Positions 6,156 through 57,440 of a DNA stretch of 64,000 bases are shown one piece after another. Positions within the stretch are counted from its first letter, which is position 1. The number at the start of each line of letters is the position of its first letter. The DNA comes from a virus: positions 124,001 through 188,000 of IMG/VR virus record IMGVR_UViG_3300042540_001822. One strand, given 5' to 3'. The notes below the pieces were generated by a model. The model had not been told where the DNA came from and did no database searches. It was given only the letters and a program-made list of their open reading frames with translations. The translations under genes and the position numbers were made by a program.

Positions 6156-6158
6156 GTC

Positions 6159-37339: not shown

Positions 37340-37340
37340 T

Positions 37341-38437: not shown

Positions 38438-38443
38438 GGGTTA

Positions 38444-39175: not shown

Positions 39176-39218
39176 ATCTTTATTTTTTAATAATCCGGAA
39201 TCTAATGTTTGTTTCACA

Positions 39219-40004: not shown

Positions 40005-40666
40005 TTTAAAAATTTTTCTCCTTCAACTCTATTTTTAATTATTTTAGCAGGGTTGCCGTATGCTAGTACATTTGATGGGATAGATTTAGTAACTAAACTA
40101 CCTGAGCCTATTACTGTGTTTTCTCCTATTTCTAATCTATCCATTATAGTTACCCCTAATGTAATAGCCGAAAATTTTCCAATTTTAACATATCCCCCTG
40201 TTAAGGATCCCGCAGATATACTAGCAAAATCTTCTATTTCATTATCATGTTCTACTTGTGCCCCTGTAGCAAAAAAAGTAAAATTACCTATTTTAGCTTT
40301 AGGATTAAAAATACATCCAGCCATTGCTACAATCCCTATTCCTAATTCAGTAGTATTTCCTATAATAACTGAGGGGTGAATAGCATTCACAAATTTAAAA
40401 TTAGGTATTAATTCATGTATTTGATTATAAACATAATACCTACTCCAATTATCTCCTATAGAAATTACTCCCCCATATATGTCATTTTGATTAATAATTT
40501 CTTTCAAATTTTCTTGACGACCTAAAATAGAATAACCAAATCTTTTACTTCCTATCTCATGGATTGAGTCAACAATACCAATAATATTATATTTTTTTTC
40601 TTTTTCAATAATATCTATAGTATAATGAGCTTGGTTACCTCCTCCTATTAAAATTATATTTTTCAC
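40001..40666 (-). CDS. NeuD-family sugar O-acyltransferase
   Basis: An N-terminal Rossmann-like start (MKNIILIGGGNQAHYTIDII) precedes a left-handed beta-helix of hexapeptide repeats (IGNTTELGIGIVAMAG, KIGNFTFFATGAQVEHD, IGENTVIGSGSLVTKSI). This is the NeuD/sialic-acid O-acetyltransferase type, which acetylates activated sugars or sialic acid. AT-rich like PhyH and overlapping it by 4 bases. Confidence 0.8.
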   Translation of the reverse strand: MKNIILIGGGNQAHYTIDIIEKEKKYNIIGIVDSIHEIGSKRFGYSILGRQENLKEIINQNDIYGGVISIGDNWSRYYVYNQIHELIPNFKFVNAIHPSVIIGNTTELGIGIVAMAGCIFNPKAKIGNFTFFATGAQVEHDNEIEDFASISAGSLTGGYVKIGKFSAITLGVTIMDRLEIGENTVIGSGSLVTKSIPSNVLAYGNPAKIIKNRVEGEKFLK

Positions 40667-41289
40667 TTTGTATAAATTTTAAATTTAGATAAGTTGGGGT
40701 ATGGAAGCTCCAAATCAGCGTTATGCTTTTTGCTACCATCGGTGTTGTAAAATTGATTCATTAACAACAAGCCCCTCGTTGCAAGTTCGGGCATCATATA
40801 GAAATTCCATCCGAGCATATCAAAATGATCATCGTGATAACTGCACTCTCTCCTACCGCTATACCTTGCTCTTTTAAACCACAAATAAGCCTGATGATCA
40901 TCGGTAAGTATTGCTCCTCCCTTGGATAACTTAAAATGCTTGTACGGACCTGTAAACGATATGCACATATGGGTATTGGGAAGATACATATCAGCCGTAA
41001 ACCTTAAAGCACTATCCCAAACCCGGCTCGGTTTGAGTTGGTATGCGCCCTTCAATGTCGTTCCTTCAACTTCTTCAAAATCCACCCTTGCCCCTGCGTG
41101 GATGATTTCGCAAGGCACGGATGGGTATGTTCGTTCCGGGATAGTAATTGTTGTGCCTCCAACTTTCTCGTACATCAATGCTAAAAACAGTCCATTGGAT
41201 TGGTTGTCTAAGCACACTGCATAAGGAGCGCCGGTGTAGTCCGCAAGGCGTTTTTCAAATTCGTTGGTAATGTCATAAACAGTTTTCAT
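40663..41289 (-). CDS. DegT/DnrJ/StrS-like aminotransferase, short form (208 aa)
   Basis: DegT family (PLP sugar aminotransferase): ADYTGAPYAVCLDNQSNGLFLAL, VWDSALRF and TGPYKHFKLSKGGAILTDD. A lysine in the PLP region (PYKHFKLSKGG) is present. At 208 aa it is about half the normal length, lacking the C-terminal domain, so it may work as a partner or be reduced. More GC-rich than the flanking AT-rich genes. Confidence 0.7.
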   Translation of the reverse strand: MKTVYDITNEFEKRLADYTGAPYAVCLDNQSNGLFLALMYEKVGGTTITIPERTYPSVPCEIIHAGARVDFEEVEGTTLKGAYQLKPSRVWDSALRFTADMYLPNTHMCISFTGPYKHFKLSKGGAILTDDHQAYLWFKRARYSGRRECSYHDDHFDMLGWNFYMMPELATRGLLLMNQFYNTDGSKKHNADLELPYPNLSKFKIYTK

Positions 41290-41324
41290 CCAGATAATTT
41301 TTTTTCTTCTTGGTGAATAAAATT

Positions 41325-41966
41325 TTAAATTTTGATTTTTTTTAAATAACCATTAGGGTTGAAAGTAACATTGTAACCATAAAAATCACACCATTTTCTA
41401 TCTATTTCGAATTGTGGATTTTGGGGCAAAAATTCTCCTATTGCTCTAAGAGGACCTCCGTCATAGTTTTTTTCGATGCCCATCCAATTCACAGTTCCAT
41501 CTTCAACGATCATATAGGAATCTTCGCTGATTAAATCTTTGAATTTATTCATCACAGACAAAACATCGTTATATTTGTGTGACCCGTCTTCAATCAACAT
41601 AATTTTTTCAAATGAGGATGCATAATCCAAGTTGTATTCTTGATAACCTCCCAAGAATCTCTGAATTCTTGGATGTCGATTAATCAAACCCCTCTTTTCT
41701 TCGGAATTTGATAAAAAAGTTTCATCCTGAATATCCACAGTATGAACCATACCTTTACCTATATTATTTAAAATATCACCCAAATACAGGCAGGATCCTC
41801 CATAATTAGTCCCTATCTCTATTATCAAATCGGGTTTTATTTCATTAATTATCATTTGATACATTACGTAATCAAATGGGGATTTTTCAGTTATGATTCC
41901 TCTATATAAAGTTTTTAGATGTCCATCCATGATACCATCTAAATTTAAGTTGTATGAATTGTTCAT
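41325..41966 (-). CDS. CmcI-type cephalosporin hydroxylase/methyltransferase-like
   Basis: KPDLIIEIGTNYGGSCLYLGDIL, MVHTVDIQDETF, LIEDGSHKYNDV and SYMIVEDGTVNW match the CmcI-like SAM-dependent family. The acceptor is probably a sugar or polyketide-like group here. 213 aa. Confidence 0.75.
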   Translation of the reverse strand: MNNSYNLNLDGIMDGHLKTLYRGIITEKSPFDYVMYQMIINEIKPDLIIEIGTNYGGSCLYLGDILNNIGKGMVHTVDIQDETFLSNSEEKRGLINRHPRIQRFLGGYQEYNLDYASSFEKIMLIEDGSHKYNDVLSVMNKFKDLISEDSYMIVEDGTVNWMGIEKNYDGGPLRAIGEFLPQNPQFEIDRKWCDFYGYNVTFNPNGYLKKIKI

Positions 41967-41975
41967 TTTTTTATT

Positions 41976-42380
41976 TTAAAGATCCACTCTCATAGTATTG
42001 CACTCCCTGAAAAATCCACATCTTTCATAGAAATTTATTCTCTCATCAAAACAGGATAGAATAACCTTATAACATCCAAGATATCTTGCTTTTTCCAATG
42101 CTTTTTGAACTAATAAATAACCAATTTTATTACCTCTAAATTTTTCTTTTACTGCTACATCCTCAATATACCCAGCTATTCCCCCGTTCCTTATTAATTT
42201 TTTTTGAATATGAAGGGTAATTGTTCCTATAATTTCTTCCCCTTCAACCGCTACAAAGTTATGATTGTTAAGCATCCACTGGTCTAAATTGTGAATTTCA
42301 ATTTCTGTAATCCACCATGTTTCACTAAGGACTTTCAATAAACCTAGTTCATCTCCTTTTTGAAATTCTCGAATAATCAT
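41976..42380 (-). CDS. GNAT acetyltransferase
   Basis: Contains the acetyl-CoA loop EDVAVKEKFRGNKIGYLLVQKAL and a following YKVILSCFDERINFYERCGF. 134 aa; likely acetylates a sugar amine made by the aminotransferase next door. Confidence 0.8.
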   Translation of the reverse strand: MIIREFQKGDELGLLKVLSETWWITEIEIHNLDQWMLNNHNFVAVEGEEIIGTITLHIQKKLIRNGGIAGYIEDVAVKEKFRGNKIGYLLVQKALEKARYLGCYKVILSCFDERINFYERCGFFRECNTMRVDL

Positions 42381-42385
42381 GATAT

Positions 42386-43546
42386 TTATTTTTGAGATTC
42401 TAAAACTCGATCAATTACAAATTCAATTTCTTCGTCTCTTAAATAAAGATGCAAAGGAAGACTGATGATTTTTTCGCTTGAAATTAAAGAATTGGGGTTT
42501 AGCCCAAATTGAGATTTATACATCTCATAATTAGTATTGTCTCTATAATGAACCCCGGGATAGATTCCGTTCATATTCAAGTATTCCATAGTTTTATTTC
42601 TTTCCTCTACAATTATTTGGTACAAATGTCTGGAAGAGATTTCCGTATAAGGAGAAACTTTAACTGATTTAATGCCAGATGATTCAAAAGCAGTTTCATA
42701 AATTTTGCAGATCTCCCTCCTTCTTTCATTATCTTCTTCCAAATATTTGAGACCTACCAAAGCCATAGAAGCCATCATAGAATTTCCATGGTATTTAAAT
42801 CCGACATCTACCAGATCATATTCCCATTTATAACTCCCTTTATCATGGGATCTCTGGTAAGTGTCTTTTGAAATTCCAAGCCAAGATAATTTTCTAGCTA
42901 AAGCGTCGTAATCCTCGTTTTTAAAACAGATCATTCCTGAATCAGCGGTAGGGAGGTTTTTAACAGCCTGAAAACTAAAAATGGAAACATCAGCATCTAA
43001 ACCAACATGGTCTTTCGAGTATCCAACCCCAATCTCTGTTTTGTTTTTGACCCAGGTTCCGGCCATATGTGCGGCGTCTAAAATAATTTTTAGGCCTTTT
43101 TTTTTGCAAAGTTTTACTATTTCATCAAACCTACCGGCATTACCACCAATACCAACAAATAAAACAGCTTTGGTTTTTTTAGTAATTTTTGATTCAACTG
43201 ACTTAGGATCTAAGCAAAGAAATTCATCCACGTCCGCAAAAATTGGTTTCAACCTTTCGTACAAAATCGCATGATTCGAAGAAACGAAAGTTAGAGGAGA
43301 CGTGATAACCTCATCTCCATCTTTCCATTTATTTGCATCTTTCAAAATTTTCAAGGCAAGATGTAAACCTGATGTGTTAGAATTTATAAAATGCGAATGG
43401 TTGAATCCAGTGTACTTTTTCCATTCTTCTTCAATCTGCTGAGTTTTAAAACCTAAACCAGTCCAGCCCATTTCCATACATTCCTCCATTATTTCGAAAA
43501 TTTCGGAAGTTCTAAATTTAGGTTTAAATAATTGAATATTTTTCAC
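42386..43546 (-). CDS. DegT/DnrJ/EryC1/StrS aminotransferase, full length
   Basis: 386 aa. INSNTSGLHLALKILKD, DEVITSPLTFVSSNHAI, LDAAHMAGTWVKN and DVSIFSFQAVKNLPTADSGM with the PLP lysine (QAVKNLP) are all visible. Makes an amino sugar by transamination of a 4-keto sugar. Confidence 0.8.
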   Translation of the reverse strand: MKNIQLFKPKFRTSEIFEIMEECMEMGWTGLGFKTQQIEEEWKKYTGFNHSHFINSNTSGLHLALKILKDANKWKDGDEVITSPLTFVSSNHAILYERLKPIFADVDEFLCLDPKSVESKITKKTKAVLFVGIGGNAGRFDEIVKLCKKKGLKIILDAAHMAGTWVKNKTEIGVGYSKDHVGLDADVSIFSFQAVKNLPTADSGMICFKNEDYDALARKLSWLGISKDTYQRSHDKGSYKWEYDLVDVGFKYHGNSMMASMALVGLKYLEEDNERRREICKIYETAFESSGIKSVKVSPYTEISSRHLYQIIVEERNKTMEYLNMNGIYPGVHYRDNTNYEMYKSQFGLNPNSLISSEKIISLPLHLYLRDEEIEFVIDRVLESQK

Positions 43547-44649
43547 AACAAATAATAATTTTTTACTAGAGCATACTTAGACAAGTTTTCTCTTTTAATT
43601 TTTATAGAATCTGTGAATTGACATGTTTCATCTCCTATATTCTGTAATTTTTTTGTAAAAACTACAGAATCCCCATCTACAAACAAATCATTCAATTTTT
43701 CTTTGTACCAAGTTCCTTTTCTCAAAATAATTTCTCGTTTATAAAATAATTCGCCATTTTCATTTTCAATCTGAATTTCGAATTTTATTTCTTCCCCGAA
43801 AAAACCGTAGTCTACTTCCAAAAGCAATGAACATTCACTAAGATCTTCTTTCCAAAATATCGAAGAAGTTGTTTGGGAATGTAAAGAACTAGGTCCTGGT
43901 TGTATAACTGAACTTTTTAAGTTCCAATTCCCAATTCCAAAAAAATTATCTAATTCTTCATAATTGCAAATTAAATTGTCGTCTTGAACAAAAAGTTGTA
44001 AAATTACATCTTCACCAGAGCAATTAGGAAAATGTTTTTGATAAACTGAATTATCAGAAAAATCTATATTTGGAATTCTGTTTATTAAAATTTCATCAAC
44101 GCTGAATCCGAAAAAGAATCCAGAAAACCAACTGCTAAAATTTGGGCTATTTCTAATAAAGAAATTCCTTTTTTTTCCTAGGTCATTAAAAACCTGATTA
44201 AATTTTTCTAGGATATTATCTGGGCATTTAAAATCACCTACAAAATAAAAAGAAAAATCATAACCTTTAGAATGAACAAATTTTATAGAGTTAAAAAATT
44301 GGGACATAATAGCAACAGACCAACCAGTGATTACTACATAATCTCTAAACATCTCGTTTCCAATAGTCATAAATTTCATATAAATTGGATTCGATATACC
44401 TTGTAAATTGTAATTTAAAATGTCGGAATCAAGGAAATGGTAATTGTTTTTCTTTTCAAAAATAAAATAAGTCGAGTTTTCAATTATTTCTGGAGTACAC
44501 GGGTGATGGCTGGTAAGTAAAACATCTATGTTATTTAATTTGAATTTTTTTAAGTTCTCTAATAGAATTTTCTGTTCATCTTCTGTTTGAGGATAAGCAT
44601 CAATAATAACACAAAATTTTTTTTCTGTGTAATTTTTTTTGGAGTCCAT
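43543..44649 (-). CDS. Virion/glycan-associated protein, GT-like N-terminus, 368 aa
   Basis: The N-terminal half (FCVIIDAYPQTEDEQKILLENL...DVLLTSHHPCTPEI) parallels the 50458-51390 protein ([21 protein letters not shown]...[15 protein letters not shown]), so they are paralogues. The C-terminal part looks like an all-beta domain. It may be a glycosyltransferase-like protein; the DxD motif is unclear. Confidence 0.5.
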   Translation of the reverse strand: MDSKKNYTEKKFCVIIDAYPQTEDEQKILLENLKKFKLNNIDVLLTSHHPCTPEIIENSTYFIFEKKNNYHFLDSDILNYNLQGISNPIYMKFMTIGNEMFRDYVVITGWSVAIMSQFFNSIKFVHSKGYDFSFYFVGDFKCPDNILEKFNQVFNDLGKKRNFFIRNSPNFSSWFSGFFFGFSVDEILINRIPNIDFSDNSVYQKHFPNCSGEDVILQLFVQDDNLICNYEELDNFFGIGNWNLKSSVIQPGPSSLHSQTTSSIFWKEDLSECSLLLEVDYGFFGEEIKFEIQIENENGELFYKREIILRKGTWYKEKLNDLFVDGDSVVFTKKLQNIGDETCQFTDSIKIKRENLSKYALVKNYYLL

Positions 44650-44683
44650 TCTTTAAAAAATATTTAATTTTTCTTCCAAATTA

Positions 44684-45598
44684 TCAATTTTTCCAAGCCC
44701 ATATCATGTTTCCAGTGTGGTGTGTTTGGAATCCATTTTCTGAAAAGATAAGCAACAATTGATCCGGAGGATGAATATGATATTCTAAAACTATCTTTGG
44801 TATAGACTTTAAAAATTCAGAGCTTAAGTAAGGCAAAATTTCCCATTCACATCCTTCACAGTCGATTTTCAAAAAATCTATTTTTACTCCAGATTCTCTA
44901 GCCCATTCTTCCAGAACAACTCCTTGGCAAGAAACACTTTCATCAGTATGATCAAACGAAAAAGAAACTGAATTCAAAACACTAAAGTCATGTATGTTTA
45001 ATCTTAAATCTTTTTTTTCAGACCACACGGCTGAATTGTTAACATGAATTGGTAAATCCCCAAAATTTGTTTGTATAAAGTTTGATAATTTGGGATCTGG
45101 TTCAAAAGAGTGAACTTTAGAAGCACCTTGTGTAATTGAAAAATAAGTGAATAAACCAATATTAGCCCCAATATCAACAACAACATCTCCAGGTTCTACT
45201 TTACAACGATCGTGGTTATATTCACCGTTAAGAAAAATCTCCCAAAGTACCAATCCGGTTGATAAGTCTTTTTTTGAAAGATTACTCCCTATATTTTTCA
45301 ACTTGTTTTTTTGGTCTAAATTTCTTACATCATGTTGAAAAACATCCGAGTAATCACAAACTTGAAGTAGGATTTCTTCAGTTTTAGAATCTTCCACTAC
45401 AAAAGTCATTAATTTTGTAATTCTACCGTCATAAGATGCCCAGTAGGAACATTTTGGAAGGACTTTCATTGTTTCCCCCCTGAAAATTAAACTAGTATAT
45501 GAATCAATGAACTTAATTACAATTTCTTTTTCTTCATCAAAATGACTTGTAAAATCTATTCCGTTTCTATCTGGTAAAATGTGATTCAATGAGATCAT
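44684..45598 (-). CDS. FkbM-family methyltransferase
   Basis: PGDVVVDIGANIGLFTYFS, VHSFEPDPKLSNF, FLKIDCEGCEWEIL and PKIVLEYHIHP mark FkbM. 304 aa with an N-terminal extension of about 120 residues. Probably O-methylates a sugar. Confidence 0.8.
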   Translation of the reverse strand: MISLNHILPDRNGIDFTSHFDEEKEIVIKFIDSYTSLIFRGETMKVLPKCSYWASYDGRITKLMTFVVEDSKTEEILLQVCDYSDVFQHDVRNLDQKNKLKNIGSNLSKKDLSTGLVLWEIFLNGEYNHDRCKVEPGDVVVDIGANIGLFTYFSITQGASKVHSFEPDPKLSNFIQTNFGDLPIHVNNSAVWSEKKDLRLNIHDFSVLNSVSFSFDHTDESVSCQGVVLEEWARESGVKIDFLKIDCEGCEWEILPYLSSEFLKSIPKIVLEYHIHPPDQLLLIFSENGFQTHHTGNMIWAWKN

Positions 45599-45604
45599 AA
45601 TTTA

Positions 45605-46381
45605 TTATTTGTTGTTTTGTTTAAGAACTTCTTTTTCTTTATTGAAGCAATGTAAAGAAGTGATGTGCATGGTAAAAAGTCCAGGTTTTACATTTTCCCA
45701 AGATTCGGGACTTCTCTCTTTCAATTTTTCTAGAACCCAAAAAACTTTGCGGCAAGCCATGTAAATATCGTCCCTGAAATGGCGGAGGTAGTCGCAAGAC
45801 CTTATGTAATACACGATGTGTAAATAATCTGCTCTTCTCATAAAATGATAACCGATTGTACAAGGAACTCGTTCACCGTGAACAGAACCAGTGTCTTCAG
45901 GGAACCACAAAGGAAGAAATGCCTGCCTTGTAAAAGGTTCTCTTTGTAGCAAATCGATCACATCCCCAAAGTCACCATAATGGTACCTGATACCAAACAT
46001 GGTAGATTTGGGTTCTTCCGATGCAAATTTAGGCCAGAGCCTTTCGGGATAAGTGTGAGAAAATTTCTCCTCGATTTTAAACTGGGCGTTCTTCTTTTGG
46101 TTGAAAGGCCACCATTCGTTCGAAGGTGGTGGATTTAAAGGTTGGCCCCCTATTCTTTCTTCAAAATGATCGTCCGCCCAGGGAAGATTAGGTCTGACCT
46201 CCTCGCGTAGCTCCTGAAGTGTACCTGGCACAAACATAGAGAAAGATGTATTTAAAGTTTCCCACATGTCGTCGGGAGAAGTTATACCCTGCCATCTCTC
46301 GGTCTGTACAACATATCCATAGTCGATCAATTTTTCCTTAGCCCACTTGATGGCTTGTGAGGGCTTTTGAAATGTTTTCAA
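45605..46381 (-). CDS. Thymidylate synthase superfamily protein (nucleotide-modifying?)
   Basis: Has the TS/dCMP hydroxymethylase layout: FGIRYHYGDFGDVIDLLQREPFTRQAFLPLWFPED (TRQ replacing SRR), the reactive cysteine in ERVPCTIGYHFM, and YIRSCDYLRHFRDDIYM (the RSxD equivalent). It ends FTMHITSLHCF. 258 aa. It is distinct from thyA at the left edge. Likely dUMP or dCMP hydroxymethylation or another pyrimidine modification; substrate not determinable. Confidence 0.6.
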   Translation of the reverse strand: MKTFQKPSQAIKWAKEKLIDYGYVVQTERWQGITSPDDMWETLNTSFSMFVPGTLQELREEVRPNLPWADDHFEERIGGQPLNPPPSNEWWPFNQKKNAQFKIEEKFSHTYPERLWPKFASEEPKSTMFGIRYHYGDFGDVIDLLQREPFTRQAFLPLWFPEDTGSVHGERVPCTIGYHFMRRADYLHIVYYIRSCDYLRHFRDDIYMACRKVFWVLEKLKERSPESWENVKPGLFTMHITSLHCFNKEKEVLKQNNK

Positions 46382-46410
46382 TTGAAATAAATTTTGAAAA
46401 TTATACAGAT

Positions 46411-46429
46411 CAGAAACTATAAGTTTCTG
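46411..46429. repeat. 8-bp inverted repeat upstream of the TS-like gene
   Basis: CAGAAACT (46411-46418) pairs with AGTTTCTG (46422-46429), loop of 3. The region 46382-46455 holds no gene. No strong poly-T follows in the minus direction, so an operator or RNA hairpin is as likely as a terminator. Confidence 0.45.
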
Positions 46430-46455
46430 TTTGATTTTATTTTATCTCAAAAATT

Positions 46456-47109
46456 TTATTGGTTCAACCAAAAAAATAATTCTTCATTACCAATCAAATT
46501 TAAATCCCTAACTCTATTTTTTTGAAAAACTTTATATTCGAAATATGGGTTGTCAAAGGGAACGAGCTCTTGTCTTCCTCTTTTAATAAGACCAACTCCC
46601 TCATCGATATTAAGAGTACAAATATTTAAGTCAGATCTAGTTGCCTTTAATTTATAAATCGTTTTCCAAACCGTTCCGTTCCATGGCTGTCCCCAATTAT
46701 CCTCAACTAATCTGGTATAATTTTCTTCATACATAAATGGGTCACAATCATGCAAAACAATAACACCATTTTCTGATAAGTGATTCAAAGAATTCAATAT
46801 GTCTTTTTCCACCTGATAAGAAAGATGTAATCCATCAATAAAAATTAGGTCCCACTTATAATCAGGAGGTAAATCCAACAAATTATTTTCTAGCCTAATA
46901 AAGAATTCATCCGATGTGTATTGGTATTTAACTGGATTTTCCTGGTACTCTAAACCTGGATCTACCCCGGATTTTTCTGGACATTGAATTAAATCGAAAC
47001 AATCCCACGGGAATCTAACTCCTATTTCTAAATAGGTATTAAAATTTTTTGTTTGAATGATTTGGTTGATTACTTCAGATCTGTGCATGAATATAAACTT
47101 GTTTACCAA
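46456..47109 (-). CDS. Class I methyltransferase, Methyltransf_24-like
   Basis: FNTYLEIGVRFPWDCFDLI, WDLIFIDGLHLSYQVEKDI and GVIVLHDCDPFMYEEN match SAM-dependent O-methyltransferases. 217 aa. Probably methylates a sugar. Confidence 0.75.
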   Translation of the reverse strand: MVNKFIFMHRSEVINQIIQTKNFNTYLEIGVRFPWDCFDLIQCPEKSGVDPGLEYQENPVKYQYTSDEFFIRLENNLLDLPPDYKWDLIFIDGLHLSYQVEKDILNSLNHLSENGVIVLHDCDPFMYEENYTRLVEDNWGQPWNGTVWKTIYKLKATRSDLNICTLNIDEGVGLIKRGRQELVPFDNPYFEYKVFQKNRVRDLNLIGNEELFFWLNQ

Positions 47110-47172
47110 TTGTACTGAATTGATAATTAAAGTTTCTTGGATACAAAAAATAGCAGGATTTAATCCTATAAA

Positions 47173-47583
47173 TTATCTATTCTTACTGCTCATTTTCCGG
47201 TACAACTTGTATTCTGGTGTTTCCTCAATGGAATCTAATTCGAATCTCTGGAAATTTCCGAACCTCATAGGTCCATTTAAATTAAACCTTTTGTGTGGTT
47301 CGACTGAATCCTCGTAAAATTGACAAATTTGCTCGTGATATTCGGAATCTTTTTCAATAAAATATTCTTCTGGGTTGTGATAGTAGTCAAAAAGATACTC
47401 TGCCCATTCGGAGGGATTCTTTCCTCCTCCAAATTGTTCGACAAATTTTTCCATTTGGATTTCTTCATCCGTCATGCTTATACCCAAATTTTGGAAACCT
47501 GAAATCAAATCATCTAGATCTGACCCAATATCATTATTTTCATTCAAAATTGAGAACACCCAAAAGGATTTTAAATTATTCAT
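47173..47583 (-). CDS. Hypothetical protein, 136 aa
   Basis: Acidic, soluble (NENNDIGSDLDDLISGFQNLG, GNFQRFELDSIEETPEY). No family recognised. Just upstream of its ATG is the GGATATATAA motif at 47590-47599. Confidence 0.6.
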   Translation of the reverse strand: MNNLKSFWVFSILNENNDIGSDLDDLISGFQNLGISMTDEEIQMEKFVEQFGGGKNPSEWAEYLFDYYHNPEEYFIEKDSEYHEQICQFYEDSVEPHKRFNLNGPMRFGNFQRFELDSIEETPEYKLYRKMSSKNR

Positions 47584-47589
47584 GATAAA

Positions 47590-47599
47590 TTATATATCC
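47590..47599 (-). promoter_or_regulatory. GGATATATAA motif, candidate late promoter
   Basis: Same 10-mer as 29851-29860 and 36021-36030. It lies 6 bases upstream of the 47173-47583 gene. Confidence 0.45.
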
Positions 47600-47611
47600 A
47601 TTTTTTTGCCC

Positions 47612-47645
47612 ACAAAAAACCCGACCTGAATTGGGTCGGGTTTTA
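47612..47645. terminator. Bidirectional rho-independent terminator
   Basis: AAAACCCGACC and GGTCGGGTTTT form an 11-bp stem with a 7-base loop and A/T runs on both sides. It separates the lipoprotein gene from the 47173-47583 gene. Confidence 0.8.
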
Positions 47646-47658
47646 AGCTTGTCCGGAA

Positions 47659-47817
47659 TTACTGAACTGCCGTGGTTGAATCTACAGAGGTAGTGTCCGC
47701 AGATTCAACTACTGTAGAATCCACTGTTGTCTCCTCGGAAGGAGCAGTTTCTTCTGTTGGTGTAGCACATGAGCTCAGAATCAAAGCTGAGACAAGCAAG
47801 AAAAACAAATTTTTCAT
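47659..47817 (-). CDS. Small lipoprotein, 52 aa
   Basis: Frame MKNLFFLLVSALILSSCATP with a lipobox (LILSSC) and a short Thr/Ser/Glu/Val-rich tail (STVVESADTTSVDSTTAVQ), a common Bacteroidetes-style small lipoprotein. Likely lipid-anchored to the outer side of a membrane; role in lysis or superinfection blocking is a guess. Confidence 0.7.
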   Translation of the reverse strand: MKNLFFLLVSALILSSCATPTEETAPSEETTVDSTVVESADTTSVDSTTAVQ

Positions 47818-47839
47818 TTTTTTGGTTTTGAATTTTAAA

Positions 47840-47849
47840 TTATATATTC
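47840..47849 (-). promoter_or_regulatory. GAATATATAA motif upstream of the lipoprotein
   Basis: Late-promoter-like motif variant, 22 bases upstream of the lipoprotein ATG. The same variant occurs at 33764-33773. Confidence 0.4.
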
Positions 47850-47887
47850 ATTTCGAAGAATGTTTCAATGAATTCAATATTTTTTAT

Positions 47888-48133
47888 TCAAATAGAAGAA
47901 GATCCATATTCCATTTCGAGGTAAGACATCTCTATTTCTGCTTTTTTCTGGTCATATCCAAATTCATTCTGAATTAAATTTACACCATATTGTCTCCATT
48001 CCAAAAGCGTTTCCCCCTTCAAAGGAAAATTCAAATTCCAATAGGGATCTTTATTTAAAACTTCTTGTTTCAGATCAAGATAAATTCTGTGTCTCTCTTT
48101 TAGAGCGGCAAAAATTTTGTTTTTGTTTTTCAT
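47888..48133 (-). CDS. Small hypothetical protein, 81 aa
   Basis: Basic N-terminus (KNKNKIFAALKERHRIYLDLK) and an acidic C-terminus. Contains WRQYGVNLIQNEFGYDQKKAEIEM. No family recognised. Confidence 0.55.
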   Translation of the reverse strand: MKNKNKIFAALKERHRIYLDLKQEVLNKDPYWNLNFPLKGETLLEWRQYGVNLIQNEFGYDQKKAEIEMSYLEMEYGSSSI

Positions 48134-48149
48134 TTAATTTTTGATTTTA

Positions 48150-48938
48150 TTAAAATTTTGAGGATTCGAGATATTGTCTTTTTCTTTCATTCAGTGTTTT
48201 TCTTCCTTCCGATAACCAATTTTCCTGTGCGTTTGAATTTTCATCTTTAGTTTCTGATGGATAAGTTAATGAATTAGGATGAACACGATAAACATAACTG
48301 GGATATTGAAGATATTCAATTTTTCCTCTTAGAGAAAGCTCAAAGTTCATCGGCCAGTCGGAATAAGGAAATTCTTCCATATATTTTTGAAATAAATCAG
48401 GATAATTCACAAAAAATCTAGAAGATGAAGTAACACAGTTGTGTTGATTAGCAATAAAATCCGAAGAAGTATATTCCTCTTTTTGTAAGTGTTCAGGAGG
48501 CCCAAAAAAATAATTTCCTGTTCTTAGAGGTTCGAATTTTTTTTCATTCTCGTTGTATATTATGTAAGCCGTGAAACACATTGATAAATCTTTATTATTT
48601 TCCATAATTTCATACTGATTTTGGAGTTTGTTCGGATCTATCCAATAGTCATCAGCATCTAAATAAGCTATGTAATCACCGGTTGCCTGTTCAAGTAAAA
48701 ATTTTGTATTTTGTATTTCTCCGGAATTAGATCTAGAAAAATAGCGAAACGAAAATTTATGTCCTGGAAGTATATTTTTAAAGTACTCTAAAACTTCTAA
48801 ACTTTGATCCGTAGATCCATCATCCGAAACCAGAATTTCTACGGGGAAAGAAGTTTGTTGACATAAAACGGAAAATAAACAGGTGTCCAAAAATCTACCA
48901 TAATTATAATTAGGTATAATGACCGTTACTTTTTTCAT
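48150..48938 (-). CDS. GT2-family glycosyltransferase
   Basis: VTVIIPNYNYGRFLDTCLFSV, EILVSDDGSTDQSLEVL and YIAYLDADDYWIDP are classic GT2 motifs. 262 aa. Part of the surface-glycan cluster. Confidence 0.85.
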   Translation of the reverse strand: MKKVTVIIPNYNYGRFLDTCLFSVLCQQTSFPVEILVSDDGSTDQSLEVLEYFKNILPGHKFSFRYFSRSNSGEIQNTKFLLEQATGDYIAYLDADDYWIDPNKLQNQYEIMENNKDLSMCFTAYIIYNENEKKFEPLRTGNYFFGPPEHLQKEEYTSSDFIANQHNCVTSSSRFFVNYPDLFQKYMEEFPYSDWPMNFELSLRGKIEYLQYPSYVYRVHPNSLTYPSETKDENSNAQENWLSEGRKTLNERKRQYLESSKF

Positions 48939-48948
48939 TTTTAAAAAA

Positions 48949-49629
48949 TTATTGATTTACAAAATAAAACATTGTTTGATGTTCCCCGTTATTATTTACA
49001 TCCCAATAAAAAGAATGTCTAACTTTTCCTGGAATAAAAAAAGTTTCATTAAGAATAGGATCGTGTGTTTCTACTGCTATTTTATTTATTTTATTTAAAA
49101 TTGATTCATCCAAGTTTTGGAATAAATCATATTCTCCACCTTCAATGTCACACTTCAAAAAGTCAATTTTTTCCAAATTGAAAATTTTGAAAACATCCTC
49201 CATTTGCAAATAAAGGGGGTTGTGTTTTGGTGACCATAAGTGTGTTGGATGTAGGGATTTTCCCAAAACAGAAGCATTCAAATATTTTACATTGTTGTGT
49301 TCTTTTGTATTTTCTATAAGACAAGAAAAAACTTCATAACCTCCATCTATAGCTATTATTTCTTTACATTTTTTTGCTGCCAAGTGAGTAAAGAAACCAA
49401 CATTTGCCCCCAAATCAACCACCACATCTTCTGGATTAAGTTTGCAATCCCACATTTCATAAATGCAATTAGTTTCAGAGAATTCCCAGCCATAAATTTC
49501 CTTGAAGAGAAATTCATAACCAAAAAAAGAATTGGAACTTAAAACAAAATCAAGATTTTGATTCCAATAATGGTTATTCTTGTCTGAAAAAAGTTTCCAA
49601 TTTTTTCCTGTCATTTTATTTATATTCAT
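48949..49629 (-). CDS. FkbM-family methyltransferase
   Basis: VVVDLGANVGFFTHLAAKK, IIAIDGGYEVFSCLIEN and IDFLKCDIEGGEYDLF identify FkbM. 226 aa. Starts MNINKMTGKNWKLFS. Confidence 0.8.
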   Translation of the reverse strand: MNINKMTGKNWKLFSDKNNHYWNQNLDFVLSSNSFFGYEFLFKEIYGWEFSETNCIYEMWDCKLNPEDVVVDLGANVGFFTHLAAKKCKEIIAIDGGYEVFSCLIENTKEHNNVKYLNASVLGKSLHPTHLWSPKHNPLYLQMEDVFKIFNLEKIDFLKCDIEGGEYDLFQNLDESILNKINKIAVETHDPILNETFFIPGKVRHSFYWDVNNNGEHQTMFYFVNQ

Positions 49630-50055
49630 TTATTTTTGGCTATCACCTTTCGAAACCCGATAAGAATCTGACTCAATGTGGTGAGTTGAAACTTCAAAGA
49701 TTATACCCTCTGTTATTGCTTCCAGTTGATGTGGTGTTCCTGGCTTTTGTCTCACACAGTCACCTTTTTTTAAGGTTGTCTCAACTACATCTGCATTCCT
49801 GGTGTCGATGAATCTATAAATGAAAGTTCCTTCCTGAACATACCACGTTTCATCCTTAATCAAATGGTAGTGCATAGAAAATTTGGCTCCGGCTTTGAAG
49901 CAAAGAAGTTTCCCACAATACAATTCGTTGTTTTCGAAAACAATCTCTTGCCCCCACCCTTTTGGTATATTACAACTGGGGCATTCCAAAGCATTGTAAA
50001 TATGTGAAAGGTTGATTTCAATCATTTCAATTGGAGGATTTGGCAAATAGGACAT
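49630..50055 (-). CDS. Cupin-domain protein
   Basis: AKFSMHYHLIKDETWYVQEGTF and a second half with KKGDCVRQKPGTPHQLE are the two cupin metal-binding motifs. 141 aa. Probably a sugar isomerase or epimerase in the glycan pathway. Confidence 0.75.
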   Translation of the reverse strand: MSYLPNPPIEMIEINLSHIYNALECPSCNIPKGWGQEIVFENNELYCGKLLCFKAGAKFSMHYHLIKDETWYVQEGTFIYRFIDTRNADVVETTLKKGDCVRQKPGTPHQLEAITEGIIFEVSTHHIESDSYRVSKGDSQK

Positions 50056-50082
50056 TTTAATTCGATATATAATTTTATGGAA

Positions 50083-50118
50083 TTTGAATAAAAGTTTTCG
50101 AATTTTGGTTTATATTTG
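50083..50118 (+). promoter_or_regulatory. TTTG/TATATTTG promoter-like site, plus strand
   Basis: TTTG at 50083-50086 and TATATTTG at 50111-50118, with a 24-base spacer, just above the usual 19-23. It is 17 bases upstream of the plus-strand gene at 50136. CGATATATAA also lies at 50063-50072. Confidence 0.4.
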
Positions 50119-50135
50119 TAAATAATTAATTAATA

Positions 50136-50342
50136 ATGGAAATTGATAAAATAATCAATTCGATCAAAAATCACCTGCTGAGCATCGAGCTTTCATCTGA
50201 TGGGGAAGATAAAAAAAATCATTTGATTGTAATTAAGCAGGAAGTTGAAAACTTATCTGTGGAATATCAAAAATTAAAAGAAACACACGATACAATCATT
50301 TCTCAGTTGAAACAGGAAATTTCTAGATTGAATAGGCTTTGA
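50136..50342 (+). CDS. Small coiled-coil protein, plus strand, 68 aa
   Basis: One of only two convincing plus-strand genes in the window. MEIDKIINSIKNHLLSIELS then VEYQKLKETHDTIISQLKQEISRLN, a likely coiled coil. Function unknown. Confidence 0.6.
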   Translation: MEIDKIINSIKNHLLSIELSSDGEDKKNHLIVIKQEVENLSVEYQKLKETHDTIISQLKQEISRLNRL

Positions 50343-50364
50343 TTTCAATTATTTAAAATTTTTG

Positions 50365-50449
50365 CGGAGAGGGAGGGATTCGAACCCCCGGATCCTTGCG
50401 GATCGGCTGTTTTCAAGACAGCTCTCGTAAACCACTTGAGTACCTCTCC
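50365..50449 (-). tRNA. trnS-UGA: tRNA-Ser (anticodon UGA)
   Basis: Acceptor GGAGAGG pairs with CCTCTCC, D arm CTCAAGTGGTTTACGAG, anticodon loop CTTGAAA giving anticodon TGA, a long variable arm (type II, Ser-like) and T arm GGGGGTTCGAATCCCTC. The CCA is not encoded. 85 nt. It sits close to the tmRNA. Confidence 0.9.
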
Positions 50450-50457
50450 AATTTTTA

Positions 50458-51390
50458 TCAAACGAAAAATTCTAACAAACCTCTTTGGTTGTATTTGACC
50501 TTATTTTCTTCATTCAAAACAAATTTTTTTGTAAGGATAAATTCTTTATCTTGTATTTTAACTTCTGTTAATTCTTCAGAAGGATAATACCAATACGTTC
50601 CAGGGTATAGATCAAAACTTTTACCATTCACTTCACACTGTAAACCATAATCTTTATTGTTCATAATATACAAATAATAGCCTTGATCAGAAGGAATAGT
50701 TTCACAGATTATTTCAATCCCGGAAATTCTATTAATATAACTGTTTTCGAAACCTTGAATAGAATTAAATCCATCACACGATTTTATCAAAAATAATTCC
50801 TCTTCTGGATAAAAAAAATTATAAAAATCATCTTCTAAATATCCACTTAAATTTTTGATGTCTGGACTTTCTTTAGTAATTGGAAATCTAAAATTCCTAA
50901 CGAAAAAATCAATATTTCCACCAAACAATAAAGTATGATAGCCATAACTTGATTCAGTTGGATATTTGTGAAAAATCAATTTTTTATTTTCTTTCAACAT
51001 CTCTGAAAGATGTAAATCAAATGTTTGTAAATCAATATCACCAATTAGATTGTCACACTCAGTGAAAAAAAAGTTGACAAATCCCAAACGTTGACCTAGT
51101 GAAATTCCATTGATCATATTTCTTAAAATAGCGATAGAGTGACCTGGATTTGAGATAGAAACTCTAAATTGGGAGTTAGCGAACCAAAACCAAGATGTAG
51201 ATTCTAACATGATGTTTTCCGAATCATAAACACAATAATCAACCATTTTTTGAATTTCTTCTGGTATTGGGAGGTGTGAGCACACCATCAATTTGTAATT
51301 TGTTTTTTTCAATCTGGTCAAACAATCTTTTAAAATATCCAAATGATATTGACTAGAGTGATAAGAATTGACAATAATTATCTTTTCCAT
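50458..51390 (-). CDS. Paralogue of the 43543-44649 protein, 310 aa
   Basis: The N-terminus [20 protein letters not shown] and [19 protein letters not shown] parallel the 43543 gene. GT-like fold is possible ([11 protein letters not shown] has an acidic pair). C-terminal beta-rich segment. Function unknown. Confidence 0.5.
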
Positions 51391-51392: not shown

Positions 51393-51842
51393 AAAGGCGT
51401 AGTTCTGCGATTTTATCCCTCTGTCTGGGAATTTTTTTTGTTTGAAATATCGTTGAACCTCATTTGGCTCAACTCGTAATTTGCGTTGACCTGAGCCCAG
51501 AGTTTATCACATCTGGAATCCAATTGTTTCTGTAATGATTCAAATAGTTCTTTTTCAGCTCTTATTCTCGAGTCTTCTCGTTTGCCGATTTCATCTGTAA
51601 CTTCATCGATTCTACTGTGGATGTAAGAATCATCAGAATGTAGGTTTCCCCTTGTAATTTCAATCTCTTTCCAAACCGATTCAATGCGGTCAGAGATTTT
51701 GTTTGTGATTTTTCGGTCTAAATCCGAATTCATCTTAAACACGCCCACCACAGTGACCAAGACCACCACGGTAAGCGCACCTAAAAGAAAATAAAGTGTT
51801 TCCATAATTTTTAAATTTTTTTTGAAGCAGAACTACGCCTTT
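51393..51842. repeat. 16-bp perfect inverted repeat flanking the 51413-51805 gene
   Basis: AAAGGCGTAGTTCTGC (51393-51408) and its exact reverse complement GCAGAACTACGCCTTT (51827-51842) lie about 420 bases apart, on the two sides of a single gene. The arms may delimit a mobile or invertible cassette or form a long-range RNA stem. Confidence 0.7.
51413..51805 (-). CDS. Membrane-anchored coiled-coil protein, 130 aa
   Basis: A hydrophobic segment (FLLGALTVVVLVTVVGVFK) at the N-terminus is followed by heptad-like helices (ESVWKEIEITRGNL, SLQKQLDSRCDKLWAQV). Single-pass membrane protein with an extended cytoplasmic or periplasmic coil. It lies between the arms of a 16-bp inverted repeat. Confidence 0.65.
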   Translation of the reverse strand: METLYFLLGALTVVVLVTVVGVFKMNSDLDRKITNKISDRIESVWKEIEITRGNLHSDDSYIHSRIDEVTDEIGKREDSRIRAEKELFESLQKQLDSRCDKLWAQVNANYELSQMRFNDISNKKNSQTEG

Positions 51843-51882: not shown

Positions 51883-51906
51883 AAAGTTTGTCCGAAGACA
51901 AACTTT
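51883..51906 (-). terminator. Terminator of the tmRNA
   Basis: Read on the minus strand, AAAGTTTGTC-TTCG-GACAAACTTT forms a 10-bp stem with a stable UUCG tetraloop, followed by a run of T. It starts only a few bases after the tmRNA 3' end. Confidence 0.85.
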
Positions 51907-51910: not shown

Positions 51911-52347
51911 TGGAGCTGGGCGGATTCGAACCGCCGTCCTGTTAGGTAGATCTTGGAAACTCATTCACAGGCTTAGTCTATTTTTATAAACAGACAAATC
52001 TTTACCTCCTAGTTTTTGACTGTGATAGGAGATAATCCACAGCGTCTTCCCTTACAGCGATCTGAAGGGTATTGGGCCGGAGCCCGCAGGGTTACTGAGG
52101 GTCGACGAATTTTGTGGTACTATTAACCCTTTTTCCCACAATTGTGACTTTCTGTTCCTGGGCGTCACCTCCCGGTGTTTAGGCTGCCAAGGCAACTTCA
52201 ACCGACTCCACTGAACCTAGTCCAGCAAGAGCAAAAAATGGATTTTCGCCATTTGAAAAGTACTTAGGATATTTAGGTGCTTCCAAAGCTAGCACCGCCT
52301 GCATCATGTCAAAGAACTTGTTCCTCCAGTCGATTCCTGTCAGCCCC
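51911..52347 (-). ncRNA. ssrA: tmRNA (transfer-messenger RNA)
   Basis: The 5' end GGGGCTG and 3' end CAGCTCC(A) form the acceptor stem. A T arm GGCGG-TTCGAAT-CCGCC and a 5' stretch GGAATCGACTGGAGG match tmRNA. About 437 nt, a little longer than usual. The tag frame lies at 52250-52179: resume codon GGC, tag start GENPFFALA, tag end VEVALAA followed by TAA (23 residues). No CCA is encoded. Releases ribosomes stalled on broken mRNA and tags the protein for proteolysis. Confidence 0.9.
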
Positions 52348-52382: not shown

Positions 52383-52775
52383 TCATAATTTGACCTCAAA
52401 TCTTTTCGCCATAGCATCTAACTTGTCAGAAGGAACTCCGTGAACATTTTCACCCATGTGTCGGTTTTCTACGATCGCGGTGGAAACCAGATAACCGAAT
52501 TTTTCGGCCATTTGAAAATAAGGTTCCATTTCCCATTCCTGTGTAAATGTATTTGATACGATAATTAAAGGGTGGTCCAAAAACATCCAATCTTTAACCA
52601 TTGTTTGGCACCACTCGTGAGCCTGCTTTAATTTGTCACCTTGGAATTTATATTCTCCATCTACCATGAAAAATTGGTCAGCTTCAACGTGAAAAACCCC
52701 ATAACCTCCTAACCTTTTGGCCAAAGTTGATTTACCAGATCCGGGCAAACCCCGGAGTAAAAGAAGTGTATTCAT
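52383..52775 (-). CDS. P-loop (AAA-type) nucleotide kinase
   Basis: LLLRGLPGSGKSTLAKRLGG is the Walker A motif. 130 aa; SNTFTQEWEMEPYFQMAEK and RHMGENVHGVPSDKL resemble polynucleotide or zeta-type kinases. It sits between tmRNA and clpP, so a role in RNA end processing is possible but unproven. Confidence 0.7.
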   Translation of the reverse strand: MNTLLLLRGLPGSGKSTLAKRLGGYGVFHVEADQFFMVDGEYKFQGDKLKQAHEWCQTMVKDWMFLDHPLIIVSNTFTQEWEMEPYFQMAEKFGYLVSTAIVENRHMGENVHGVPSDKLDAMAKRFEVKL

Positions 52776-52788: not shown

Positions 52789-53463
52789 TTAATTGGTTTT
52801 CTTTGTGATTACCCCATCGATGATTCCATAGGCCTTGGCTTCCTCGGCATCGAGCCAAAAATCACGGGTTGCGTCCTCCTGAACCTTTGCCGGATCCTTA
52901 CCACAAAAATCACCAAGTAGTTCAAATAGGATTTTATTCACCTTTTCCCATTCTTGAAAGTCAATTTTTGCGTCCTGGATGTTTCCTTCGAAGCCTCCAG
53001 AAGATTGGTGCAACATCACCTTAGAGAAGCGAAGAGAAAATCTTTTTCCCTTGGTCCCAGCACCTAATAGCACAGATCCCATAGAAGCTGCCATGCCCGT
53101 GTTGATTGTGGAGATGTCAGATTTAATGTACTGCATGACATCCACCATTGAAAGTCCAGATTTAACCGATCCCCCTGGTGAATCGATGTGCATTGTGATG
53201 TCCCTTTCATCAACGGAATCTAAAAACATCAGCTGTGCCTGAACTACTGTCGACATGGAATCACGGACCGGACCTGCCACCCATAAAATTCTGTCCATCA
53301 TGAGTCTTGAAAAAATGTCCAATTGTGTCACCCGAAGTTCTCTTTCTTCTAGAATGTAGGGGGTTAGTGAGCTTTGAACTTGTTTTTCATAGTAGTCCAA
53401 AGTGGAGGAACTAATTCCTTGAGATAGGGAGAATTTTTGAAATTCCGAAAAAAGTTTTGACAT
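52789..53463 (-). CDS. clpP: ClpP serine protease
   Basis: Proteolytic subunit of the Clp protease. Catalytic triad S127 (in NTGMAASMGS), H152 (in VMLHQSSGG) and D201 (in DATRDFWLD). Ser environment and motifs MHIDSPGGSVKSG are typical. 224 aa, no ClpX/ClpA here, so it would rely on the host ATPase. It is one gene away from the tmRNA and may degrade tagged proteins. Confidence 0.9.
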   Translation of the reverse strand: MSKLFSEFQKFSLSQGISSSTLDYYEKQVQSSLTPYILEERELRVTQLDIFSRLMMDRILWVAGPVRDSMSTVVQAQLMFLDSVDERDITMHIDSPGGSVKSGLSMVDVMQYIKSDISTINTGMAASMGSVLLGAGTKGKRFSLRFSKVMLHQSSGGFEGNIQDAKIDFQEWEKVNKILFELLGDFCGKDPAKVQEDATRDFWLDAEEAKAYGIIDGVITKKTN

Positions 53464-55308: not shown

Positions 55309-56781
55309 TTAAATTGATTCGAATTTTATACCTCCATGAGGCATTCCTTTTGTTTTAAGTGGTCTGTAACCTTTCATTTCGTCTGTAACTACGAATGCCT
55401 TATGAGGATTAACCATTACCCCCATTCTTTTCATTAAACCTCTATTTGCCAAAAAAGGAGTGCTTTTTTGAATTCTGTCAGTAGGTGCAACCTTAACATC
55501 GGAAATTTTAACTCCATTGAGCATCAAATCCAATGATATAATAGGTCTTTTTTCTTTTTCCCTTCCAATTTCAGTGTTTGTGTAACCTATAATTTCATCT
55601 GCGAAAGTATTTTCACCTATTTTCCAATATAGAACTCCATTTTTTTCCTCCAATTCATCAGCGTGAATCGAAGAGGCTGAAGATCCATTACCAGTGTCAA
55701 ATTTTGCCACCATTTTACCAATTCTGGGAATATCTAAAGTTTCTAAATAGCCAACCTCCATTTTGCTATAGCTCCAATTATTCTTGTCTATAACATAGTC
55801 AATAACATCTCCAACAATAGGTCTTCCAATTGCCTGAGAAATACCTTCTGTTCCAGGAGAAGAATTGACCTCCAAAATGTAGGGTTTACCCGATTCAGCA
55901 TCAATCATGATGTCTACTCCACACCAGTGGCTTCCGACTGCATTAGCGGCTTCACAAGCGAGAGCTGCTGTTTCTTCGTCGATATCATAGGATGAAACCT
56001 GCCCTCCCAAAGAGTAATTAGTTCTAAAGTCTTTTTCAACAGCTTCTCTTTTCATGGAACCGAGAATGGTGTAATTTCCTTTTTTTGAAATAAGTGGATC
56101 GAATCTTTTAACGATTACCTGAATTCTAAGATCAAAATTAGAATTAATCTTTTCTTGTATCAAAATTTCCTTTTCCGGGTCTAGCTTTGCTATGGTCTGA
56201 TAAACCGACTTTAAAGAAGCATAAGAATCAACAATCGAAACTCCAATTCCCTGGGTCCCAGACAGTAATTTCATAACGACAGGAAATTTACCTCCAATCT
56301 GCTCCAAAGCGGAATCTAGATTGTCTTCCCCGTTGACTAATGCGTATCTAGGAACGGGTAAACCCTCACCCTCCAAAATCCGGGAGGTAAGAAATTTGCT
56401 TTCACAAATCTCAATTGATTCTAAAGAGTTAACGCAAAAATATCTAGATGCCTCCAAATCTCTCATGATTTGTTTGGTGTAGGAGTTGGTAATAACTCCT
56501 CTCCGAGGAATAATTGCAGTTTTATCTGGTTTAATTAGAATTTCTTTGCCATCTTTTTTTCCTTCACGAACCATGTGTCCGTTGTAAATTTTTTCCAACG
56601 TTATGTTGTTTATGTCCACCACGTTGCAGACGATTCCCCGATTTTCACACTCGGCCATAAAAGATTTAGAGGTAGGGCTGGGTTTGGCGGTACCGGACAG
56701 GATAAGAATTTCTACCCCATCTGAGGACTCGGATTCATTCAAGAAGGTTGAAAAATTAACAACAGAAGGAGCAAAGGACAT
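55309..56781 (-). CDS. RimK-type ATP-grasp enzyme fused to retropepsin-like domain
   Basis: The N-terminal part (residues about 1-300) has RimK motifs PVPRYALVNGEDN, KFPVVMKLLSGTQGIGVSI, ILIQEKIN and GVDIMIDAESGKPYILEVNSSPG. The C-terminal part has PRIGKMVAKFDTGNGSSASS, the aspartyl-type DTG motif of the RimB-like retropepsin domain. The fusion is unusual. ATG at 56781 (MSFAPSVVNFSTFL) fits, with a TGATATATAA motif upstream; a longer start at 56814 would read through it. It may ligate residues to a protein or act as a protease. Confidence 0.8.
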   Translation of the reverse strand: MSFAPSVVNFSTFLNESESSDGVEILILSGTAKPSPTSKSFMAECENRGIVCNVVDINNITLEKIYNGHMVREGKKDGKEILIKPDKTAIIPRRGVITNSYTKQIMRDLEASRYFCVNSLESIEICESKFLTSRILEGEGLPVPRYALVNGEDNLDSALEQIGGKFPVVMKLLSGTQGIGVSIVDSYASLKSVYQTIAKLDPEKEILIQEKINSNFDLRIQVIVKRFDPLISKKGNYTILGSMKREAVEKDFRTNYSLGGQVSSYDIDEETAALACEAANAVGSHWCGVDIMIDAESGKPYILEVNSSPGTEGISQAIGRPIVGDVIDYVIDKNNWSYSKMEVGYLETLDIPRIGKMVAKFDTGNGSSASSIHADELEEKNGVLYWKIGENTFADEIIGYTNTEIGREKEKRPIISLDLMLNGVKISDVKVAPTDRIQKSTPFLANRGLMKRMGVMVNPHKAFVVTDEMKGYRPLKTKGMPHGGIKFESI

Positions 56782-56803
56782 GAAAGTGGGAAGAAATTTT
56801 TCC

Positions 56804-56813
56804 TTATATATCA
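56804..56813 (-). promoter_or_regulatory. TGATATATAA motif, candidate late promoter
   Basis: Located 22 bases upstream of the RimK-like gene start at 56781. Closely related to the GGATATATAA motif. Confidence 0.4.
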
Positions 56814-57440
56814 CTTTTTTTCAACAAACTCTGTAAAATAATGTTGATCTGTCTCGAAATTTGTTTTATTTTCTACCGAATAAACATTCATATCAATTTT
56901 GTAACCAGGATTTTTTTCTATCCTCTTAAATGTCCACGCATTATCCATCCAAATTATTCTATTATTTGGATAGATGAAATAATTTCCATTGTCCATCTTG
57001 AAAACGTGTCCACATTTGTGTTCTGGTGTTTCTGAAAAATTGGTATCTAATAAGGATCTATTTTCAAAAGACCAATCAAGAGTAAAAAGGTAAATCCCCT
57101 GTCTTTTTAAACCCGAAATTGAAATTAAATCTGCTCTTAATCCGCTCATTCTTGCCCTCACCTGAACATCGATGTACGAGCTAAAGCAATCCCAATAAAT
57201 ATGCTCGCTTAAAGGCAATAATTCAGCATCCTTTTTCCAACAAAAAGCGTTAATGGGTCTTCTTGTCCAATTGACCCCATTTTCCAAAAAAGCTTCAAAT
57301 AATGGAACTCTTTTTTCAATCGAAGCAACCGAATGAACATCTGCTAAGGTAAAATCACCGTGTCCTTTTTCGTGGTTAAATAAAAATTCATTTCTGATGA
57401 AACAGGTCAGAGTTGGGATGTTGTGATTTAGATAGGGCAT
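56811..57440 (-). CDS. Conserved phage protein, 209 aa
   Basis: Contains TCFIRNEFLFNHEKGHGDFTLADVHS, WDCFSSYIDVQVRARMSGLR and a C-terminal aromatic part (HVFKMDNGNYFIYPNNRIIW). It may be a large-phage protein of unknown function that occurs next to RimK-like genes. Its start is MPYLNHNIPTLTC. Confidence 0.6.
   Translation of the reverse strand: MPYLNHNIPTLTCFIRNEFLFNHEKGHGDFTLADVHSVASIEKRVPLFEAFLENGVNWTRRPINAFCWKKDAELLPLSEHIYWDCFSSYIDVQVRARMSGLRADLISISGLKRQGIYLFTLDWSFENRSLLDTNFSETPEHKCGHVFKMDNGNYFIYPNNRIIWMDNAWTFKRIEKNPGYKIDMNVYSVENKTNFETDQHYFTEFVEKK

Follow-up and report, generated by a model that had tools for sequence, protein, structure and literature searches.

The virus record from which the analysed stretch derives (219,475 bases; the 64,000-nucleotide stretch is hereafter the window) codes on its minus strand for a one-piece tmRNA whose 23-codon tag frame runs through a helix-5-like hairpin and ends before pseudoknot PK2. 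It belongs to a family of phage tmRNAs with comparably long tags, which, judged by their codon differences, are under selection at the peptide level. We consider it probable that the phage encodes a working tmRNA which by trans-translation marks proteins for proteolysis by Clp, its tag combining the normal C-terminal degron with an added N-terminal module.

That the window contains a genuine phage tmRNA of 437 nt, as the original prediction held without naming the strand, is confirmed. The segment 52347-51908 on the minus strand matches the full length of the Rfam model RF00023 (model positions 1-374; 67.2 bits, E 5e-24), above its curated cut-off of 47 bits, and ARAGORN finds a gene at the same place. 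In the alignment to the covariance model, the GGC at 52250 falls on the position of the resume codon, as had been proposed. The gene extends from the 5' G at 52347 to the discriminator A at 51911. Its 3' end reads GCTCCA-CAA, the CAA following the discriminator, which bears out the remark that CCA is not encoded; ACCA occurs at the 3' end in just 7 of 41 distinct relatives, and an un-encoded CCA is thus common among them. The alanine identity pair is present in the window as G3 (52345) and U70 (51914) and in all 41 of the distinct relatives for which both ends were found, these ends having been located by requiring at least six of the seven acceptor pairs and a GG start, but not the G3-U70 pair itself. 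All seven acceptor positions are paired, across 13 different acceptor sequences. The UUCG terminator noticed at the outset also stands, as a TTCG-loop hairpin with a T-run (Table 1).

Table 1. Features of the tmRNA locus in the window (window coordinates).
Feature	Position	Strand	Basis
tmRNA gene (ssrA), one-piece, 437 nt without CCA	51911-52347	-	Rfam RF00023, 67.2 bits; ARAGORN; sequence
T arm and 3' acceptor strand	51911-51935	-	sequence
Intrinsic terminator, TTCG-loop hairpin and T-run	51883-51906	-	sequence
PK1 stem, 52296-52291 pairing with 52281-52276	52276-52296	-	comparative pairs
Tag frame GENPFFALAGLGSVESVEVALAA, 23 codons, resume codon GGC 52250-52248	52182-52250	-	translation; kept in relatives; synonymous changes concentrated in frame
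Helix-5-like hairpin inside the tag frame	52205-52230	-	Rfam H5 alignment; RNAalifold for type A, with types B and F in agreement
Tag stop UAA, just upstream of PK2 rather than in the helix-5 loop	52179-52181	-	
PK2 directly after the stop, GTGAC 52168-52164 pairing with GTCAC 52148-52144	52144-52173	-	comparative pairs
Small kinase/AAA_33 ATPase between ClpP and tmRNA	52383-52775	-	Pfam PF13671; PHROG 2071
ClpP-type protease subunit, upstream neighbour one gene from the tmRNA	52789-53463	-	Pfam CLP_protease, 198 bits; PDB ClpP chains, E 3e-48
130-aa gene downstream of the tmRNA, same place in G048/G049, synteny marker	51413-51805	-	

A search of IMG/VR with a 5' tmRNA motif lying in PK1, from which the tag was excluded, recovered 60 stretches. 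Together with other loci these yielded 34 distinct tags, all of 23-34 residues, as read by a script that took only tags of at least eight residues ending in A or V, a filter passed by all loci with enough sequence. The tags fall into several types. Type A, that of the window, ends throughout in ALAA or close variants and comprises homologous tags of 23-24 residues read in the same frame from other IMG/VR contigs (GENPFFALAGLGSAEPVEVALAA, GENPFFVLAGLGSVETAEVALAA, GENPFYILAGLAPVEEAEVALAA, a VALVA version of GENPFYILAGLAPVEEAEVALAA, and GENPFFILAGLVPQKEAEVALAVA); the pattern GENPF[FY]xLAGL....EVAL[AV]A is kept across these relatives, as is the VALAA with which the window tag terminates. Type B tags have 25 residues of the form G[KN]xxVW[DE]xIN.FG[AT]PV.EVE[YLF]A[VY]AA, type F tags have 23 residues of the form D[EN]KST[WF]TFEDAMSFVGADLAVAA with an Asp resume codon, and type G reads ANVELSTWTFEDAMAFADGEFAMAA; further long tags of the 5'-motif lineage reach 28-34 residues. 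The length, 23 or 25, is nearly constant within tag types. Other huge-phage tmRNAs, found by Rfam or a 3' motif, have tag types of 21, 24 and about 29 residues, plus a few of 10-15, the shorter ones being seen in some related phages (L129, L255, L258). Long tags are the rule in the 5'-motif lineage; outside it they are common, not universal. The bacterial control, 33 mostly verrucomicrobial tmRNAs read by ARAGORN, gave 9 residues in 27 cases, 10 in five and a doubtful 20 in one. Ten is also the commonest length in a database of 97,179 tmRNAs (PMC11915505), in agreement with the early observation that the window tag is longer than usual, and as known tags span 8-35 residues (PMC3968760), its length by itself lies inside the known range. 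This breadth of the lineage was not part of the original prediction, nor was the ClpP gene described below.

Other long frames were also encountered. Blastn against INPHARED with the window tmRNA gave no match, and with a type-B tmRNA a sole match, LR745206 (634 kb); a search of plasmids was likewise empty. LR745206 carries a divergent tmRNA-like gene missed by Rfam (L290, 1221-1610), with the tag GNVNEVVTREDLVAALQNNMLLVEEPATV and a non-AA end. It exemplifies a type H, seen in about 20 contigs, whose tags end in SLV or ATV, not AA, so that not all long tags are ClpX degrons. Another group of phage tmRNAs (L003, L005, L006 and L007) has a very long open frame, GDNSL.GLVIDWHLA....PTYAYA, of about 38-41 residues, of which ARAGORN gives just the last 11 codons in L005 and L006.

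The 23-residue tag with its resume codon at 52250, as originally predicted, is upheld by the relatives, in which the frame is kept. ARAGORN, while locating the gene, assigns the window a different tag, VPQNSSTLSNPAGSGPIPFRSL (VPQNSS...), which we rule out since it is not conserved in relatives and the program fails on most of the family: of 41 distinct members it tagged 7 correctly and 17 wrongly, and it called nothing in the remaining 17. In one relative (L032), ARAGORN itself reads GENPFYILAGLAPVEEAEVALAA. The codon differences, which are descriptive figures because sequence pairs are not independent, separate the frames clearly in two types: among pairwise comparisons of the six distinct 23-codon type A tags, 63/130 differences are synonymous in the tag frame versus 10/131 and 4/133 in the other two, and in type F 176/317 versus 29/311 and 1/333, while the type B frames are poorly separated (268/865 versus 246/898 and 57/875). 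The pN/pS of the tag is 0.39 in type A, 0.57 in type B and 0.31 in type F, and in type A third codon positions are more variable than first and second ones both in codons 1-10 and beyond. This pattern of substitution argues that selection acts on the tag as a peptide. The same figures bear on a reading with the true resume codon one base later, which would give the 10-residue tag AKIHFLLLLD, of canonical length and with a UAG stop placed, in the ordinary way, in the loop of helix 5. However, that peptide is not kept in relatives (AKIHFSFWQD, AKIHFTSLQD, AKTHFISLQD), its frame is the one with 10/131 synonymous differences, nearly all being non-synonymous, it does not end in AA, and a matching stop is missing from the loop in the frames of types B and F. 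We reject this +1-frame tag on the codon statistics and give it next to no chance of being the true one.

The architecture around the 23-codon frame is supported by comparative pairs. In PK1, 204/204 pairs are standard ones in 34 distinct relatives, with three of the six pairs changed on both sides, and PK2 shows standard pairs throughout the six type-A sequences, with compensatory changes. Between them, types A, B and F all have a hairpin in the RNAalifold prediction, with its loop at frame nucleotides 29-34, after codon 10, and Rfam H5 aligns at the same place in the window. An early idea that helix 5 is missing was dropped on the strength of this in-frame hairpin. In type A the hairpin is only moderately supported. 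Some sequences show mismatches in it, and window positions 52260-52100 folded as a single sequence do no better than shuffles (z 0.37), which hence is no evidence, the evidence being the comparative pairs; for both reasons we call the hairpin helix-5-like. In ordinary tmRNAs it is helix H5 that holds the stop codon (PMC3968760). In the phage tmRNA the stop lies 3' of the hairpin, and the sole stop in the apical loop (52220-52216), a UAG at 52219-52217 seen in type A, is out of frame.

Two pairs of relatives are informative about the downstream part of the molecule. Over the stretch reaching from the 5' end to the end of the tag, the identity between L004 (6771-7188) and L098 is 99%, and in the downstream pseudoknot region it is 51%; L095 and L108 are 95% identical over the same 5' part, with unrelated downstream pseudoknot domains (51-52% identity across both pairs). 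From these alignments, tag and pseudoknot domains are exchanged independently, at least two pseudoknot modules having been swapped between phage tmRNAs. The L004/L098 exchange is consistent with the reported interchangeability of PK2-PK4 (PMC3968760).

The geometry of the hairpin lends some substance to the original suggestion that an internal ALA in the tag is the former end of a normal tag: codon 10 of the tag is followed by the hairpin loop, the ordinary place of the stop, and type A has its out-of-frame UAG there. In the homologous long tags of other phage types, WDAIN or TFEDA stands where the ALA would be, so that the former end is a conjecture; even in type A just L-A is invariant (ALA, VLA, ILA), and the peptide reads LAG rather than an LAA end. 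The extension of the tag may thus be older than the ALA. These same features are open to the reading that the tag was lengthened without function, by a frame shift or the loss of a stop in the helix-5 loop, with only the EVALAA degron and the needed hairpin pairing under selection and the middle acting as a spacer. This is the chief rival to our preferred interpretation; it draws on the ordinary stop site after codon 10 with its out-of-frame UAG, on the C-terminal AA being the most general feature of tags, and on the greater variability of the later part of type B (with the highest pN/pS of the three types). Yet the N-terminal residues are kept, with synonymous changes within codons 1-10 (changes at codon positions 1, 2 and 3 number 2, 2 and 5 in type A and 1, 2 and 6 in type F), and the near-constant length within types also counts against a plain spacer. 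We regard it as rather unlikely. That the extension alters degradation, as was first surmised, is plausible.

The GEN- or GET-type start of the tag resembles the tags of Bacteroidota, and the phage tag could merely resemble that of its host, belonging to a lineage with long tags, without any phage-specific event. Long tags are indeed known in some bacteria (8-35 residues; PMC3968760). Against this, the type-A pattern GENPF[FY]xLA gave nine matches in 84,980 bacterial and archaeal species genomes, among which Bacteroidota were not sampled directly, and none of the nine lies in a tmRNA; the ordinary bacteria of the control have tags of 9-10 residues. A host-derived long tag is accordingly improbable.

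The gene neighborhood connects the tmRNA with proteolysis. The upstream protease gene scores 249 bits with the NCBIfam ClpP model, below that model's own curated cut-off of 361, versus 66 with the head-maturation protease model (Clp_rel_HeadMat), and 120 bits to its family in PHROGs, which lists mostly head proteases. The Ser (GMAASM), His (MLHQ) and Asp (DATRDFW) can be read from its sequence. This neighbor thus classes as a cellular-type ClpP rather than a ClpP-like head maturation protease. The phages with the nearest tag, G048 and G049, have the gene order of the window to either side of the tmRNA, and no ClpP was found in either; in G048, an 821-aa double-AAA+ Clp ATPase (ClpA/ClpC-like) adjoins the tmRNA on the opposite strand, and its KAIGFLV motif may be the IGF loop that docks on ClpP. 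In three phages with type-B tags (G001, G004 and G028; L316, L317 and L318), ClpP and SmpB genes are adjacent, with a 1-base overlap or within about 7 bases and SmpB second, which suggests a two-gene rescue/proteolysis operon in huge phages. SmpB occurs in 14/34 kin records and a Clp ATPase domain in 20/34; ClpP was found in 16/49 tmRNA-bearing records, many of them fragments, some of the matches being weakly ClpP-like only. The tag is thus not dependent on a phage ClpP, which many phages with such tmRNAs lack. Co-occurrence of tmRNA and ClpP is frequent, not obligatory, and adjacency and replacement are the stronger signs. No SspB-type adaptor was found in 25 records. These Clp genes adjoining window-type tmRNAs, and the ALAA-like ends of type A, count against a further reading in which the tag, instead of marking proteins for Clp, shields them or sends them elsewhere, or in which competition between the phage and host tmRNAs lets stalled products evade the quality control of the host. 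It finds encouragement in family members ending in SLV, ATV or ELV, which are poor ClpX ends, and in a tag-less tmRNA-like RNA of phage DS6A reported to inhibit the endogenous tmRNA (PMC11915505); we judge it quite improbable for the window phage.

The window further codes, at 55309-56814, for a RimK-type ATP-grasp protein that has an additional region at its C terminus and is syntenic in G048. Downstream of the tmRNA lies a long block of genes (36596-51390) which by eye resemble those for glycosyltransferases, methyltransferases and sugar aminotransferases, and a glutamine synthetase-like gene, likewise recognized by eye, occurs at 34308-35369 of this phage genome. A family of small proteins (MTIAQQIKWDF...DSQGNLIYFENSDGYW...CENKEILIGGEKFKLVKV) is present in about ten tandem copies at 14387-16014 and 25114-27384, and several paralogues starting MNNEKMNQMIDEAYENYL are found at 2450-6948. 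Other phage genes of the record match PHROGs for an endolysin, an RNA ligase and an exonuclease; no terminase of the PF03237 type was found in it.

Under the degradative function that we favor, the phage tmRNA would be expressed after infection, charged with alanine and, together with SmpB, enter stalled ribosomes. In the window phage the SmpB would be that of the host, since none was found in its 219-kb record (which may be incomplete), while an SmpB gene is present in other family members. The stalled product would receive a 24-residue tag, A+GENPFFALAGLGSVESVEVALAA, whose VALAA end would act as an ordinary ClpX/ClpA-type degron and so direct tagged proteins to Clp proteolysis, for which the window phage would supply its own ClpP. 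The first ten codons take up the room of an ordinary tag as far as the helix-5-like loop, beyond which the frame continues to a new stop before PK2; the product would be a two-part tag in which a hinge joins a hydrophobic N-terminal module to the degron. Through its N-terminal module the tag would, we suppose, make a further contact, with the protease machine or with an adaptor; most likely, the added length serves delivery to, or recognition by, a phage-modified Clp machine. In a more specific version, which we put forward only tentatively, huge phages would run a degradation pathway of their own, the N-terminal module of the read-through tag docking specifically on the phage-modified Clp machine (the phage ClpP in some, the phage ClpA/ClpC-like ATPase in syntenic kin, or a phage SmpB in others) and steering the products of stalled ribosomes to a phage-controlled protease.

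The usual view of the tmRNA tag has been that of a short degron which stops in helix 5. The present family is an entire lineage of virus tmRNAs, most of which the standard finder overlooks or reads with a wrong tag. Their doubled tags are under peptide-level selection, and their genomes frequently encode ClpP, Clp ATPases or SmpB as well, in some cases as adjacent genes. This makes it a testable question whether phages take over protein quality control and whether an extra tag module chooses the protease, and it is a reason to re-annotate phage tmRNAs. In the searchable literature, which leaves aside subscription papers, we found no report of the tag family, of helix-5 read-through or of the links to ClpP, SmpB or Clp ATPases, and nothing relevant that connects the tags of phage tmRNAs with either ClpP or SmpB; the low yield of correct tags from ARAGORN may be why the family went unseen. 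A report on huge phages, with the same kind of genome as the window phage, described tmRNA and SmpB in them and assigned the tmRNAs with ARAGORN; its tmRNA passages give no description of tags, and ClpP goes unmentioned in the main text (Al-Shayeb et al. 2020, PMC7162821).

With the standard one-piece bacterial tmRNA (RF00023) the phage molecule shares the acceptor stem and T arm with G3-U70, PK1, the resume codon, the downstream pseudoknots and the C-terminal ALAA. It differs in having a tag of 23 rather than about 10 codons, a length of 437 nt as against mostly about 350-360 nt in the controls, a score of 67 bits where the controls reach 122-190 with the same model, and a frame that reads through the helix-5-like hairpin to a stop before PK2. 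The tmRNA of the mycobacteriophage Bxz1 type is also phage-borne and has a tag of about 25 residues, comparable in length to the one described here, with a different sequence and a non-AA end. The extended alpha-proteobacterial tag of Caulobacter, at 14 residues shorter than the phage tag, combines an adaptor-binding N-terminal part with a ClpX-binding end. It is served by the adaptor SspB (which we did not find in these phages), and it offers a two-part model for what the N-terminal module of the phage tag could do.
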